Of a DNA stretch of 35,546 nt, positions 13,134-19,053 are shown piece after piece. How positions within the stretch are numbered: position 1 is the first letter of the stretch; the number at the start of each line of letters is the position of its first letter. The stretch spans positions 1 through 35,546 of the IMG/VR virus record IMGVR_UViG_3300025000_000272; one strand, written 5' to 3'. The notes beneath the pieces are model-generated. The model saw only the letters and a list, made by a program, of their open reading frames with translations, was not told where the DNA came from and searched no databases. The stretch comes from a virus. The position numbers were made by a program, and so were the translations under genes.

Positions 13134-13682
13134 TTAAAAAGTATCAATATCAGTTGGTAATTGAGTCTCTTTGTATTTTATGCCACCGCTTAAGGTCATA
13201 TCTAATAGCTCAACATTGCTTGTGCTGCCTTTTGTAAAGCTATCGTCAACCTTATCAACAAAACATTGGTAGCTTAGTATATGGTACCTGAAAAAAGGAG
13301 TAACATTAGGCCTTTCGCCTATGTATTTTAACCCGGTTGTATTGCTGGCCCTTAGTTTGTTAAGTATATATTTTATGGTTTTAAGCATAAGTATATACTC
13401 GTAACCTTCGGTAAGGCGGGTACTGTAATTTTCGGTATGTGCCCCGGGTTCTTGCAATACATGAAAATCGAGCGTAAGCAAATTAGGTTCGTTGCTTTGC
13501 AGCTCGGAAATATTCCAGCTTACATATATGCCCGGTAAAAATACTTCAAAAGCTTCAGGGTTCTCAGGCTGGCCGTAATTAATATCAATTTGTTTAATAA
13601 GCGGTAGGCTTCGGTCGATGAATACCTGTTGTACATCTTCATCATTAAAGGTGTCGATGATTTTTTTGTAGATTATTTCCAT
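13134..13682 (-). CDS. Putative tail completion protein, gp37-like
   Basis: A 182-aa protein of mixed alpha/beta type. Its content (PGIYVSWNISEL, a beta-rich middle, then a helix EGYEYILMLKTIKYIL) and length fit the tail terminator/completion proteins that accompany gp36 and gpG in Mu-like phages. The assignment rests mainly on context, because the block otherwise lacks this function. It starts at ATG 13682, 22 bp from an opposite-strand gene. Confidence 0.45.
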   Translation of the reverse strand: MEIIYKKIIDTFNDEDVQQVFIDRSLPLIKQIDINYGQPENPEAFEVFLPGIYVSWNISELQSNEPNLLTLDFHVLQEPGAHTENYSTRLTEGYEYILMLKTIKYILNKLRASNTTGLKYIGERPNVTPFFRYHILSYQCFVDKVDDSFTKGSTSNVELLDMTLSGGIKYKETQLPTDIDTF

Positions 13683-13704: not shown

Positions 13705-14127
13705 ATGGATATTGATAATGATTATTATAAAAATGAGTTTAACAAACTCTACGACATGAACAAAGAGGGCAACAAATACCGCACTGAGTGGATGCGTGGC
13801 TTTCTTTTAATTCAGTCTGCAATTTTTGGCTTTCAAGTTGCTTTTTATGGCAATAGCACTCATAAGGCAGGTTATCTATATATGATGGCCATGACATTAC
13901 TATCCATGTCACTCCTTTTTGGAATTGCTGCATCATATCTTCAAGTTTCGCTTCATAACCGGCTGCACTCATATGGTAAGGAAAAGATATTACAAGCCAT
14001 TGCTCGTAAAGCTCGGGTAGAACCATGCGGAGAAAACCCTGGAAAGATTTTTTTAATTTCAGAAAAGATTTCATTTGTTTCTTTTTCATTATCAGTAGTT
14101 TTATTTGTGATTGATATTATCCTTTAA
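13705..14127 (+). CDS. Three-helix membrane protein, probable moron
   Basis: A 140-aa protein with a charged N-terminus and three hydrophobic segments (about 31-49, 57-78 and 121-140), so an inner-membrane protein. It is the only plus-strand gene within the minus-strand late block, divergent from the gp37-like gene (22 bp) and convergent with the gpG-like gene (11-bp overlap). This insertion-like placement suggests a lysogeny-expressed accessory gene, such as superinfection exclusion or immunity to the MuF toxin-like domain. No homology supports either. A minus-strand ORF over the same DNA (13739-14089) looks like a shadow. Confidence 0.65.
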   Translation: MDIDNDYYKNEFNKLYDMNKEGNKYRTEWMRGFLLIQSAIFGFQVAFYGNSTHKAGYLYMMAMTLLSMSLLFGIAASYLQVSLHNRLHSYGKEKILQAIARKARVEPCGENPGKIFLISEKISFVSFSLSVVLFVIDIIL

Positions 14128-14616: not shown

Positions 14617-16395
14617 TTAATAACTTAATTCAACGTTACGAATAACCCGCAACATCATATCATTAAACCACTGTTCAATTTGCTCGGCATCCATTTGCTG
14701 AAGGTTGGTATTTTGGGTGTTTATTCCTCCTTTGTTAAACGAATCGATATTTACGGTAATGTTTCTTATTTGCTTTGCACTGCCTACTATTTTGTTAATT
14801 GAATCGGATGCTAATGGATTGATATCATCCGGATTATTGGCATTACCATTACCTGTTAACAAATCGTCATGATTTTGAGGTAATTTTGATTGATACTCTA
14901 ACAATTTAGAGTAAACATCATCAATTGTTTCTAAGGCTCCTTTGCTAAACAATGCGTTAAACCTTTCATACGTCTTATGATATTCATAAAAATTACCCTT
15001 GTACTTTCTATTTTCGTCATATGATTTTTGATATATTTCTCGTAGGGACTTAAGCTCACCAAATGTTTTATCAAATTCTGTTGTTTTAAACTTACCCGGA
15101 TCGTTAATTATTCCAGAAAATTTTTCAAGAACAGAATCAGTACCAAGTTGTTTATATCGCTCTCCTGCTCCTGTTGGATTTAAAAACGATCTTGTATTGC
15201 CAATAAAGTCTAACTTAAATTGAGCCCATTCTATTTTTGTTGGCAACAATGATTCACCAATGTCTGTTTTTAATATTTTTAACCTCGCCTCAAGCTGTTC
15301 ATTAATATATGTAATATCTTTTTTAGATATTTCGAGCGCTTTAGATAAATCGAGGCCAGAAGTATCAAAGCTGTTTATCATGTTTTGCAGCTGCTCTGTG
15401 CTGCCCATTGCCGCCTGAATAAATGCAATTAACCCTTCAGATCCTGCAAATTGGTTTTTAAGGTTAATTAATGCTGCATCGTTATCACCCAAATCTTTAA
15501 ATTTGTTACTTAATTCAAGCAACAGGGCATCGGCTTGTTTAAATTTATTGTTATTGTCGTAAACGTTTATACCAATGTCTTTAAACGATTTAATTACACT
15601 GCTCTTGGTTAAATCTGTAAATAATGATTTAGTTAGGGTTGCAGCTTCATCAACACTTTTCACTTTAACTGTAAATAATGAAAATATTTTATTTGCCGCT
15701 GCAAAATCTTGTTTGGCAGATGATGCTGAACCGGCAAATACGCTCATTACTTTTGATAACTGGTCAAAGGTTGTAACACCTGTTTTTACGGTTGCAAATG
15801 CCGCCCTGTTAAATTCATTTAGCCTTTCTGCTCCAAAGCCATAGTTTGCCATTGCTTTAGCTGTACCTTCTATCCAGCTATTAAAATCGGCTTGCATTAA
15901 CCTGGCAAATTCTCCTTGCTGTGCTACTATCTTCTTAACTTCATGCCCATATTTCCCGGTAACAGATTGAACATCAAAAAAAGCAGTAGAAGTTTTATTT
16001 AGGTCAAACCCTTTTTCAAATGCAACATTTTTGACCATAAACTTTAGGTTACCCATACTCTCAATTGATTTATCGAGGTTTAGCATTTGTAGTTGCCTAA
16101 AATTCTTTTGAAAATTGGCAGCTTCAACAGTGGCTGCATTTAATGCCATTCCAACACCCACAATTAAGCCCGTGGCCAATGTAATTGGATTTTTAAGCAA
16201 GCTAAAGGCTGTGCCAATAAAAGGCACTTCGCCAGCTACCGATCGTAAAGAATCAACCGCATGAATTTTAAATTCTGAAAACCTGGTTTTTATATCGCGT
16301 ACATTGGAATTAACACTTTCCTTCGCTTTACTAAGCCCGGTTTTCATTCGGTTTTTTAGCTCCAGGATAAGTTGAATTTTTGCCGATCCGTCCAT
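14617..16395 (-). CDS. Tail tape measure protein, TP901 type
   Basis: A 592-aa protein, predominantly helical, with a hydrophobic membrane-like segment at about 65-90 (PFIGTAFSLLKNPITLATG). The middle carries the TP901 tape-measure core, recognisable by FQKNFRQL, the WIEGTAKAMANYGFGAE region and LKNQFAGSEGLIAFIQAAMG. It sets tail length and is expelled on infection. At 592 aa it implies a short contractile tail. It is unusual that this tail gene lies on the minus strand with the packaging genes while tube, sheath and tail chaperones are on the plus strand 10 kb away. Confidence 0.85.
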   Translation of the reverse strand: MDGSAKIQLILELKNRMKTGLSKAKESVNSNVRDIKTRFSEFKIHAVDSLRSVAGEVPFIGTAFSLLKNPITLATGLIVGVGMALNAATVEAANFQKNFRQLQMLNLDKSIESMGNLKFMVKNVAFEKGFDLNKTSTAFFDVQSVTGKYGHEVKKIVAQQGEFARLMQADFNSWIEGTAKAMANYGFGAERLNEFNRAAFATVKTGVTTFDQLSKVMSVFAGSASSAKQDFAAANKIFSLFTVKVKSVDEAATLTKSLFTDLTKSSVIKSFKDIGINVYDNNNKFKQADALLLELSNKFKDLGDNDAALINLKNQFAGSEGLIAFIQAAMGSTEQLQNMINSFDTSGLDLSKALEISKKDITYINEQLEARLKILKTDIGESLLPTKIEWAQFKLDFIGNTRSFLNPTGAGERYKQLGTDSVLEKFSGIINDPGKFKTTEFDKTFGELKSLREIYQKSYDENRKYKGNFYEYHKTYERFNALFSKGALETIDDVYSKLLEYQSKLPQNHDDLLTGNGNANNPDDINPLASDSINKIVGSAKQIRNITVNIDSFNKGGINTQNTNLQQMDAEQIEQWFNDMMLRVIRNVELSY

Positions 16396-16457
16396 ATTGT
16401 TTATTATTTAAAAATTTGTATATTTGTACTGTTGTTGGGATTCGTCCCTATGACACC

Positions 16458-16492
16458 CAAAATCCGGGTTACTTTTTGTAATTCGGATTTTG
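16458..16492 (-). terminator. Inverted repeat across the end of the MuF gene
   Basis: CAAAATCCG (16458-16466) and CGGATTTTG (16484-16492) form a perfect 9-bp stem whose loop holds the MuF stop codon at 16469. A small GGGA..TCCC hairpin lies just beyond (about 16437-16448). No T-run follows. It may attenuate transcription between MuF and the tape measure or protect the mRNA end. Confidence 0.45.
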
Positions 16493-17743
16493 CATTTTAA
16501 TCAATTCTTTTCCATTAATAACCCATACTTTATTAAGTGATTTTGAAATATTAAATTTGCCGTTAACAACGCGCTGTATTTCAAAATTGTTCATACCATT
16601 TGTAAGCTTTACAATTAAATTATTTGCTTGTTTGGTATTGCGCATAGCCTTATCCTTAATTTTACCGCTCAAATGTTTCATATCGGTATTTTCAAGGCCT
16701 GTAAATTCAAACAATTCATTATTTACCAATGCATCAGGATTTTTGCCCGGGAAAAAAGCCTCTGTTTTATACAATTGCTTACGTAATTCATCATCGGCCA
16801 AGCTCAGTATCGGGAGCAATTTCACCTTATATCCATCATCGGCAAGTATTTTGCCAATAGCAATATTCTGTTCCATTTCTGTTATGCCGTGCAATAAGTG
16901 CATTTTAACGCTGCCTTTGCTCTCCTGGTTAACATATACACTTTTATAAGCCACTTCATCAGGAAGTGTTTGTATGGCTGCATACAATACCGTTTTAGGT
17001 ACTCCCTCATAATAGGCATGCCCTTCAGGAAAAACGAGCCCTTTCTCGGCCAGGTTGGTTCTAAACATTTGAGGTACCGGCACATTGGGTATATCTTTTG
17101 TTTCAACTGCTGTGCTGCCTGCAAGCTGATCGGCACTGCAACGGCACCGCCAGCCGTTTGGCGGGAAGTATTGTTTCCAGAACTCGCCACTAATTTTACG
17201 CACAATGCCATTAAGTAACTCATGTTCTGCCCGCACATTATCGTCGCCAACGGTTGAATATTTAAGGTAAGGTTGCGTGTCGGCATTGGCCTTAAACTCA
17301 GCCCAGCGAGATGCCATTGTGCTTGCACCAAGAGCCTGGTCGTATTCAACTTTTAACCAGGTTTGGTTATACTGGCCATTAATTTTTTTTGCAGCATCCT
17401 TAAAATCGGCAAAACTCCTGACCTTCCCTGATTCGTCAATTAGTGCCAGGGTAGTATCGCGTAATTGCTGGTAATTTTTTGCGGCTGAAAACTGCCACAC
17501 ATCACGAGTTAAGCGTGTAAGCATTTCTGCATCGGGTGTGGTATAATCAACTTTGGCAAATGATTTTCCGTAACCTGATATCACCTGGCTCTCGACAGCC
17601 GAGCCAACTAATTTTAAAAGCCTGGCATCAATATTACCGGTTATAATGTTTCCGGCATAAACATCGTCAATAATGCGTTTTATCTCGCGGTTCAGGTTTT
17701 TGTCAAAATTAAGTGGCAAATCAACTTCGTTAACCGGAAGCAA
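16469..17743 (-). CDS. MuF head protein with C-terminal nuclease-like domain
   Basis: Head morphogenesis protein of the Mu gpF family, 424 aa from a TTG at 17743. Residues about 95-215 are the MuF domain, with RAEHELLNG and the hallmark PPNGWRCRCSA. The region after residue about 290 is unlike a head protein. EQNIAIGKILADDGYKVKLLP, then GKNPDALVNNELFEFTG, then a KAMRNTKQANNLIVKL helix-strand follow the pattern of the CdiA C-terminal tRNA-nuclease (PD-(D/E)xK-like) toxins. The acids are D337 and E346, but the expected Lys two residues on is Thr (T348), so activity is uncertain. MuF-toxin fusions are known in temperate phages. The frame is open upstream of the TTG into the portal gene and encodes an ICPHC zinc-knuckle-like segment, with no ATG; see the frameshift entry. 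Confidence 0.8.
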   Translation of the reverse strand: MLPVNEVDLPLNFDKNLNREIKRIIDDVYAGNIITGNIDARLLKLVGSAVESQVISGYGKSFAKVDYTTPDAEMLTRLTRDVWQFSAAKNYQQLRDTTLALIDESGKVRSFADFKDAAKKINGQYNQTWLKVEYDQALGASTMASRWAEFKANADTQPYLKYSTVGDDNVRAEHELLNGIVRKISGEFWKQYFPPNGWRCRCSADQLAGSTAVETKDIPNVPVPQMFRTNLAEKGLVFPEGHAYYEGVPKTVLYAAIQTLPDEVAYKSVYVNQESKGSVKMHLLHGITEMEQNIAIGKILADDGYKVKLLPILSLADDELRKQLYKTEAFFPGKNPDALVNNELFEFTGLENTDMKHLSGKIKDKAMRNTKQANNLIVKLTNGMNNFEIQRVVNGKFNISKSLNKVWVINGKELIKMQNPNYKK

Positions 17744-17785: not shown

Positions 17786-17833
17786 ATGTTGGGGAGCAAT
17801 TGTTGCCCTTGGATTACTCCCTACCGAAAATTT
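17786..17833 (-). other. Candidate -1 frameshift site joining portal and MuF
   Basis: Read on the minus strand, the portal ends GCA AAT TTT CGG TAG. In that frame the heptamer A AAT TTT (17833-17827) fits the X XXY YYZ slippery form two codons before the stop. A -1 slip continues in the MuF frame with no stop, giving a fused product of about 861 aa. Five nt after the heptamer, GGGA can pair with TCCC enclosing a GCAA/TTGC hairpin (about 17820-17790), a possible stimulator. MuF has no ATG in this region, so either this fusion or TTG initiation must be used. Confidence 0.5.
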
Positions 17834-19053
17834 GCCGTAATTCCGTTTCCCCCGGCAACCGGGGTTGTTTTTTTTCCAATAACAGGTATGTTAAAATAAC
17901 GTCCAATCCACTCCTGGTCAACTTCAAAATGTTGCAATGCGCCGCTAACAATTTCCCAATGTTCTTTTAGGCCAAGCTCTTCGGAGCGGTCGAAAACAAA
18001 GCGATCGCCCTCGTTAAATTTGAATCCCCAGGTTTGCAATAGAGGGATAAGCTTATTGTTAACAGCAAACTCTATCATCCGCCGGTCAGATTCTGCAATT
18101 TTAAAATCCAGCGTACGCTCATGCACTTCGCCCAGGCTTCGGGAACTGCCGTTATCGGTAATCATTGTGCCACCAAGTATGCGTTTGCTCATTTCTTCGT
18201 TGGTAACCGTAATTTGCTCCTTAAAAACATTGTGCGGATCTCCTTTGGTATTTCCATCGTGAATGGTAATTTTTGTGCCCTCAGGCAAAACAGCTTGTGC
18301 AGCCTGTCCAAGTTTGCTTAAGGCATCTTCAATAATGCTCAGCTCTTTGTCATCGGTTTTCATGGTTTCGGCTGTAACCAGTGGTATGCCGAAACGCTCC
18401 GAAAAATCGGCCCATACCTGTTGGGCGTTTCTCTTCCATATTAATTGAGGGATAATATCATTCATGTAACCATAAGGATGCATGTTATGCAGGTAAATTA
18501 CATTGCGGGCAAATGCCGGATCGGTGTAATTAATTGATTTATCGCCGCCAACTTCAAAGTAAATAAGTTTTTTTTGAGGGCATACATTTCGGCGCGGTAT
18601 TAATTGCCATGCCATAGTTACCGGATCAACCAATTCAATTACCGAATAACCTTTAGCAACAGCATCGAGCAAATGCTCCATGATGTTATAAAACCATTCG
18701 GTTTGTAATTGCTGTGTAGCTTCCTCATTTTCATTGCCTTTGATGTCACGCATGTAGAACCTTCCGCCCATTACAGCAGCTTTTCTAATTTGTATGTTAG
18801 CCATCAGATGACCGTCAGTCATAAGGTTATCGTACAAATCCTGCAAAAGAAACCAGCGCGGGTTTTCAGGATTTTCGGCAGTTTGGAGCGCGTCTCTCCA
18901 TTTTTTAACATCAGACCGGCTCCTGTCCTGAAACTCTTGTATAAGCTGGGTTACTATGCCGTTGCTTTTTTTGCCCAAACTGGGCTTCTTTGTTTCAGAT
19001 TTAATTAACCCGAACAAATAGCTTTTAGTGGTTGTAATGTAGTTTGCTATCAT
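17821..19053 (-). CDS. Portal protein, DUF935 family (Mu gp29-like)
   Basis: A 410-aa portal that forms the dodecameric DNA gate of the head. It matches the DUF935 plan: an N-terminal helical wing with RNPRWFLLQDLYDNLMTDGHL-like sequence (about 62-82), a central GYSVIELVDP..W..IPRR segment (about 138-160), AEERFGIPLV-like SERFGIPLV (about 224-232), and the late EVHERTLDF and NNKLIPLLQTWGF helices (about 310-345). It follows the gp36-like gene by 2 bp and precedes MuF. Its stop codon is preceded by a slippery heptamer. Confidence 0.9.
   Translation of the reverse strand: MIANYITTTKSYLFGLIKSETKKPSLGKKSNGIVTQLIQEFQDRSRSDVKKWRDALQTAENPENPRWFLLQDLYDNLMTDGHLMANIQIRKAAVMGGRFYMRDIKGNENEEATQQLQTEWFYNIMEHLLDAVAKGYSVIELVDPVTMAWQLIPRRNVCPQKKLIYFEVGGDKSINYTDPAFARNVIYLHNMHPYGYMNDIIPQLIWKRNAQQVWADFSERFGIPLVTAETMKTDDKELSIIEDALSKLGQAAQAVLPEGTKITIHDGNTKGDPHNVFKEQITVTNEEMSKRILGGTMITDNGSSRSLGEVHERTLDFKIAESDRRMIEFAVNNKLIPLLQTWGFKFNEGDRFVFDRSEELGLKEHWEIVSGALQHFEVDQEWIGRYFNIPVIGKKTTPVAGGNGITANFR

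Follow-up and report, generated by a model that had tools for sequence, protein, structure and literature searches.

This work concerns the distal end of a muF gene in a viral genome, the protein domain encoded there and a small RNA gene that faces it from the opposite strand. The window—the whole stretch of DNA that was analysed, 35,546 nucleotides (nt), positions 1 to 35,546 of the IMG/VR virus record IMGVR_UViG_3300025000_000272—carries a gene for a minor head protein of the MuF type, whose reading frame stays open upstream of its TTG start toward the portal gene. The C-terminal part of this protein is a predicted nuclease domain, and the short gap between muF and the next gene holds the RNA gene (Table 1). 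Since transposase, DNA transposition protein and repressor families are matched in the window by family search, the phage is, as judged from its gene content, a temperate transposable one.

By its modelled fold, the C-terminus of MuF is a PD-(D/E)XK nuclease domain of the kind found in the tRNase CdiA-CT 1026b. The Pfam family PF18451 (CdiA_C) matches it with E=1.3e-5 and 25.7 bits, just below the cut-off of 26.6. The AlphaFold model of the domain reaches a predicted local distance difference test score (pLDDT) of 94, and Foldseek returns 4g6v_A as the single significant match in the PDB (E 3.8e-5, probability 1.00). VIA-align to this chain gives Z 13.5 and a root-mean-square deviation of 2.4 over 120 of 132 residues, the next row reaching 6.9. 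The chain is CdiA-CT of Burkholderia pseudomallei 1026b, an enzyme that cleaves tRNA; by analogy, the target of the window domain would be RNA, probably tRNA. The two share the fold and the acidic residues, and probably a lysine displaced from the E-x-K position. They differ in sequence, with about 20% identity, and in setting—the window domain is borne by a phage head protein instead of CdiA, and no CdiI protein was found. A preliminary description of this DNA had proposed such a fusion of MuF to a CdiA-type nuclease and a structural model as the check on it; the PD-(D/E)XK fold in the model bears the proposal out, and the Pfam match, slightly under its cut-off, is better than chance. The interval 16469–17360 that it gave lies in a real open reading frame (ORF) but takes in the MuF domain as well, the nuclease-like part covering about 16469–16900.

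The acidic metal-binding residues E289, D337 and E346 are retained in the alignment, and Thr348 occupies the usual place of the lysine. In CdiA-CT 1026b, the active site comprises E187, D214, D223 and K242 (PMC9086364), the lysine lying 19 residues past D223 on the next helix. A phmmer alignment between the two domains, weak on its own (E=1), runs without gaps from NPD onward and pairs D337 with D214, E346 with D223 and K365 with K242, a spacing that agrees with the published numbers. Of the 63 CdiA_C relatives, 59 have an acid (D or E) at position 337 and 62 have one (E or D) at position 346. At position 348, 42 have K, 12 have E and 2 have T, and the others show S, V or a gap. Relatives with E348 mostly keep a lysine at the start of the following helix, and K356 of the window aligns with lysines of relatives. 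In this alignment Thr348 is a true deviation, yet a loss of activity does not follow from it, because position 348 is other than Lys in 21 of the 63 relatives and the 1026b lysine sits on the next helix. The preliminary description, which had located D337, E346 and Thr348 correctly, was thus right about the substitution and over-read it as a changed catalytic residue. An inactive window domain, turned into an RNA-binding or structural part, is unlikely: Thr348 and the extra residues in the helix behind it are common to the window and one relative only (L011), but the three acids are kept, 1026b also lacks a lysine here and uses K242, which pairs with K365 in the gapless alignment, and the RNA beside the gene has kept its promoter, hairpin and terminator, which is not so in relatives whose site has decayed.

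The nuclease domain is exchangeable and is no fixed head domain. Relatives, mostly from metagenomic loci, were gathered with an alignment of full MuF proteins, giving 114 distinct sequences that were then aligned. Thirty of the 114 are bare, ending ≤30 residues past the MuF domain; 63 belong to the C-terminal family of the window by an iterative hidden Markov model—a share that is inflated, the relatives having been ranked by likeness to the full query—and 21 carry other C-terminal domains, which include LPD3 (PF18798), an ADP-ribosyltransferase (ART) and zincin-like sequences. The preliminary description had left room for a head domain conserved in all portal-linked MuF proteins; many of them lack the region or have another in its place. 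Scans of viral contigs with the single protein, and of phages, plasmids and genomes with the C-terminal domain alone, gave nothing usable. For LPD3, the AlphaFold model (pLDDT 92.7) has no confident fold match in Foldseek, and its weak top VIA matches are mostly RNases of the RelE, BrnT and contact-dependent inhibition (CDI) types.

On the strand opposite to muF, three elements lie in the gap of CdiA_C loci: a TAnnTTTG box, a first hairpin and a terminator hairpin, whose T-run finishes at the muF stop or within it. TAnnTTTG serves the primary sigma factor of Bacteroidota as its -7 box, at -12 to -5 (PMC9723704), and across the loci TTG peaks 18–21 nt upstream of the antisense box, as for the -33 element. 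The window RNA folds into the hairpin GUUGU-U-GGGA-UUCG-UCCC-U-AUGAC and a 15-bp terminator (-27.5 kcal/mol, z -5.3); the gap folded on the muF strand shows nothing unusual (z -0.15). When 30 relatives are aligned by sequence alone, the 5' hairpin is paired in 78% of cells vs 49.5% after shuffling, with 71 double changes vs 29.6 and a covariation of 0.673 vs 0.208, and sliding by one column lowers the latter to 0.318 and 0.245. A covariance model built from 20 RNA sequences was applied to 95 loci that had not contributed to it: its hits at E<0.1 are antisense, at the muF stop and in CdiA_C loci, and the weaker ones (E 0.1 to 1) are a mixture, one of them, in L007 at E 0.11, lying elsewhere in its locus. 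In loci fetched later by toxin-domain queries, which had served neither to discover the RNA nor to build the model, it hits the expected place in 12 of 12 (some near-identical, 10 distinct) and nothing elsewhere in 82.7 kb; covariation is present there too, in an alignment fitted to the model. Rfam 15 has no family at the gathering threshold in 12 loci and nothing meaningful at a relaxed threshold. The RNA gene is real, has its own predicted promoter of the primary-sigma type and was previously unnamed. Mimicry of a tRNA acceptor—a hairpin followed by CC(C)A—is seen in only 21 of 54 RNAs and is not claimed.

Table 1. Features at the muF locus, in positions of the window
Feature	Position	Strand	Basis or remark
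MuF minor head protein with C-terminal nuclease domain	16469..17743	-	424 amino acids from TTG; start site provisional
MuF domain (PF04233)	17135..17374	-	46.1 bits against a cut-off of 29.6
Predicted CdiA_C-type PD-(D/E)XK nuclease domain	16472..16900	-	residues ~282-424; Pfam, fold match, alignment
Candidate active-site E289	16877-16879	-	alignment
Candidate active-site D337	16733-16735	-	alignment
Candidate active-site E346	16706-16708	-	alignment
Thr348 in the usual Lys position	16700-16702	-	alignment
Candidate relocated Lys: K356, K361, K365	K365 = 16649-16651	-	alignment only
Small structured RNA gene, ~68 nt	16431..16498	+	convergent to muF; +1 predicted from box position
Predicted -33 element TTG of RNA promoter	16397..16399	+	ends 19 nt before -7 box
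Predicted -7 box TATATTTG (consensus TAnnTTTG) of RNA promoter	16419..16426	+	consensus from PMC9723704
5' hairpin of RNA: 5 bp, U.U mismatch, 4 bp, UUCG tetraloop	16431..16454	+	
Terminator hairpin of RNA	16458..16492	+	overlaps muF stop and last codons
Portal protein (PF06074, Portal_Mu)	17821..19053	-	E 2e-70; directly upstream of muF
Tape measure protein (PF10145)	14617..16395	-	E 1e-16; next gene after muF, 73 nt past stop

The antisense box is present in 56 of 62 CdiA_C loci vs 7.7 expected from shuffles, and in none on the sense strand. After bare MuF it occurs in 1 of 28 loci (1.7 expected), where the covariance model also finds no hit with E<0.1 at the muF stop. Elsewhere in the loci compared, the box accompanies 22 of 390 same-strand gene ends. 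Behind MuF proteins with other domains the box is found in 13 of 21: loci of the LPD3 class have the same box in front of another RNA that the model does not detect, a single long stem with interruptions, and 8 of the 9 loci with neither a nuclease nor an LPD3-class domain (peptidase-like, ART-like, other) are without it, L006 having a distant match. Quite improbable on these distributions is an RNA that regulates late genes by antisense action or collision with muF, or an unrelated small RNA expressed in the lysogen, with no tie to nuclease activity. Such a role might be expected of a transcript convergent to muF whose terminator overlaps the end of that gene, but bare MuF genes in the same gene surroundings are not followed by the RNA, a different domain comes with a different RNA, and the RNA is lost together with the active site; moreover, the hairpin falls beyond muF and has no complementarity to that gene.

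The loss concerns few loci. L004 and L107 have lost the RNA and also E289, D337 and K348, whereas L122, their sister and 54% identical to L004, has kept both site and RNA; L112, 20% identical to L004/L107, has lost the RNA along with E289, D337 and E346. In L017, L052 and L096 the box is off by at least one base and hairpins persist, and L108 lacks an RNA call in a locus that stops at the contig edge. Fisher's test of RNA loss against site decay gives p 0.002, a value that counts related loci and ignores their relatedness.

LPD3-class MuF proteins with an antisense RNA gene of their own were seen in L031, L038, L050, L055, L064, L066, L083, L097, L098, L118, L126 and L002. Five further loci (L006, L042, L061, L075 and L116), with C-termini that are peptidase-like, an ADP-ribosyltransferase or unassigned, have ORFs of 57–66 amino acids overlapping the muF stop, which are candidate protein immunity genes.

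Neither the window nor the related CdiA_C loci have a small ORF directly after muF. In this group the tape measure gene or a neck gene is nearly always next, across a gap of about 70–115 nt; bare muF genes mostly overlap or abut the next gene. The preliminary description had noted a tape measure gene and no obvious immunity gene behind muF, which is correct for the tape measure and for protein ORFs and misses the antisense RNA gene. Its own immunity candidate, 13705–14127, found no support: this plus-strand ORF runs opposite to muF and has no homologue in any related locus. It is membrane-protein-like with a weak PF24838 match, lies inside the late module and looks accessory. Another candidate, 13134–13682, is common to 16 CdiA_C loci and was set aside as probably structural because of its conserved tail-completion position. 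Immunity from a protein gene elsewhere, with the lysogen in no need of the RNA, is hardly probable; proteins confer immunity as a rule in CDI and in the MuF toxins studied (PMC5576092, PMC11699363), but here the CdiA_C group offers no small ORF after muF, and 13705–14127 is confined to the window among these loci.

We propose that the locus encodes a phage-delivered toxin with an RNA antidote, to which we assign a probability of roughly 0.6. The MuF-toxin would be a late product that is packaged close to the portal and enters the cell together with the injected DNA—a route of delivery already proposed for MuF toxins (PMC5576092)—and in a naive cell the nuclease would cut RNA, probably tRNA. 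Lysogens would transcribe the small RNA constantly from the prophage; acting as a decoy or inhibitor that binds the nuclease domain, it would protect the lysogen and the producing cell, and so might stand in for an immunity protein. In favour of this speak the nuclease fold and the exchange of the domain among relatives, the occurrence of the RNA with the toxin domain, its loss where several catalytic residues are gone and the orphan copy near a toxin remnant. In a wider form, for which we see even odds, temperate phages of Bacteroidota would inject an exchangeable RNase toxin from the capsid and protect their lysogens by a constitutive decoy RNA, with a separate RNA class for each RNase class, which would amount to RNA-based immunity against polymorphic toxins.

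Several points weigh against an RNA antidote. The independent joint losses of RNA and site number two, which is small, and L044 is without D337 yet has retained the RNA. A Mantel test cannot separate co-evolution of RNA and toxin domain from shared descent with MuF. The candidate catalytic lysine of the window protein is ambiguous, K365 or K356 by alignment, and LPD3 would be an RNase by weak fold matches. The association of the RNA with the domain and with an intact active site would also suit a cofactor, guide or cargo that activates or targets the nuclease or is carried in the virion, structured RNAs being able to guide nucleases. We hold this to be rather improbable, given that the homologous CdiA-CT acts without RNA and that a primary-sigma-type promoter of its own, opposing the late head genes, suits constitutive expression better than co-packaging.

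To our knowledge, the immunity factors of polymorphic toxins known so far are all proteins, and no RNA immunity factor for MuF or other polymorphic toxins was found in the literature outside subscription papers and preprints. MuF polymorphic toxins of temperate phages, including a 1026b-like cd13442 domain, were described by Jamet et al. 2017 (PMC5576092), and Bxa of Bacteroides is another (PMC11699363). With these, the window shares the position of muF just past the portal gene, the temperate phage and the exchangeable C-terminal toxin domain common to other toxin systems, this nuclease type included. However, small immunity protein ORFs follow most of them (89% in PMC5576092), and here a structured RNA gene lies on the opposite strand. 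The closest analogy for an RNA antidote is offered by type III toxin–antitoxin systems (ToxIN, CptIN) and the prophage pair of AbiF and the noncoding RNA RCd22, in which the RNA binds and neutralises the toxin (PMC12373285). In both cases an RNase-type toxin stands beside a small structured RNA, and neutralisation at the window would be by analogy with them. The toxin folds are unrelated, the window toxin being a predicted PD-(D/E)XK nuclease and not ToxN, CptN, TenpN or AbiF, and it is part of a virion head protein; its RNA has no repeat array, is served by a predicted promoter of its own and is convergent to the toxin gene. If true, RNA immunity that has spread together with a phage head toxin would join the two fields of MuF toxins and RNA antitoxins, explain the apparent lack of immunity genes beside these toxins and add a means of host protection to those known for prophages. 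Promoter, hairpin and terminator would also make a compact marker for RNase toxins in phage genomes.

In 296 Bacteroidota genomes, the covariance model has four matches at E<=1e-3, of which one sits at a MuF toxin gene, a second after a toxin remnant, a third as an orphan 2.5 kb from that remnant and the fourth at an unlinked site. The orphan (L138, 1501–1561) lies in a bacterial genome 2.5 kb from the toxin remnant L136, whose MuF part was seemingly displaced by an inserted gene; orphan immunity genes often sit near toxin remnants. The unlinked match (L137, 1501–1581; 42 bits) has no MuF or toxin gene nearby and may be an orphan or due to chance.

In the window, the tape measure gene is part of the head module, where muF and the neck gene flank it; the sheath and the remaining tail genes (25051 onward) are encoded on the other strand. 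About 20 related loci have their tape measure gene displaced in this way.
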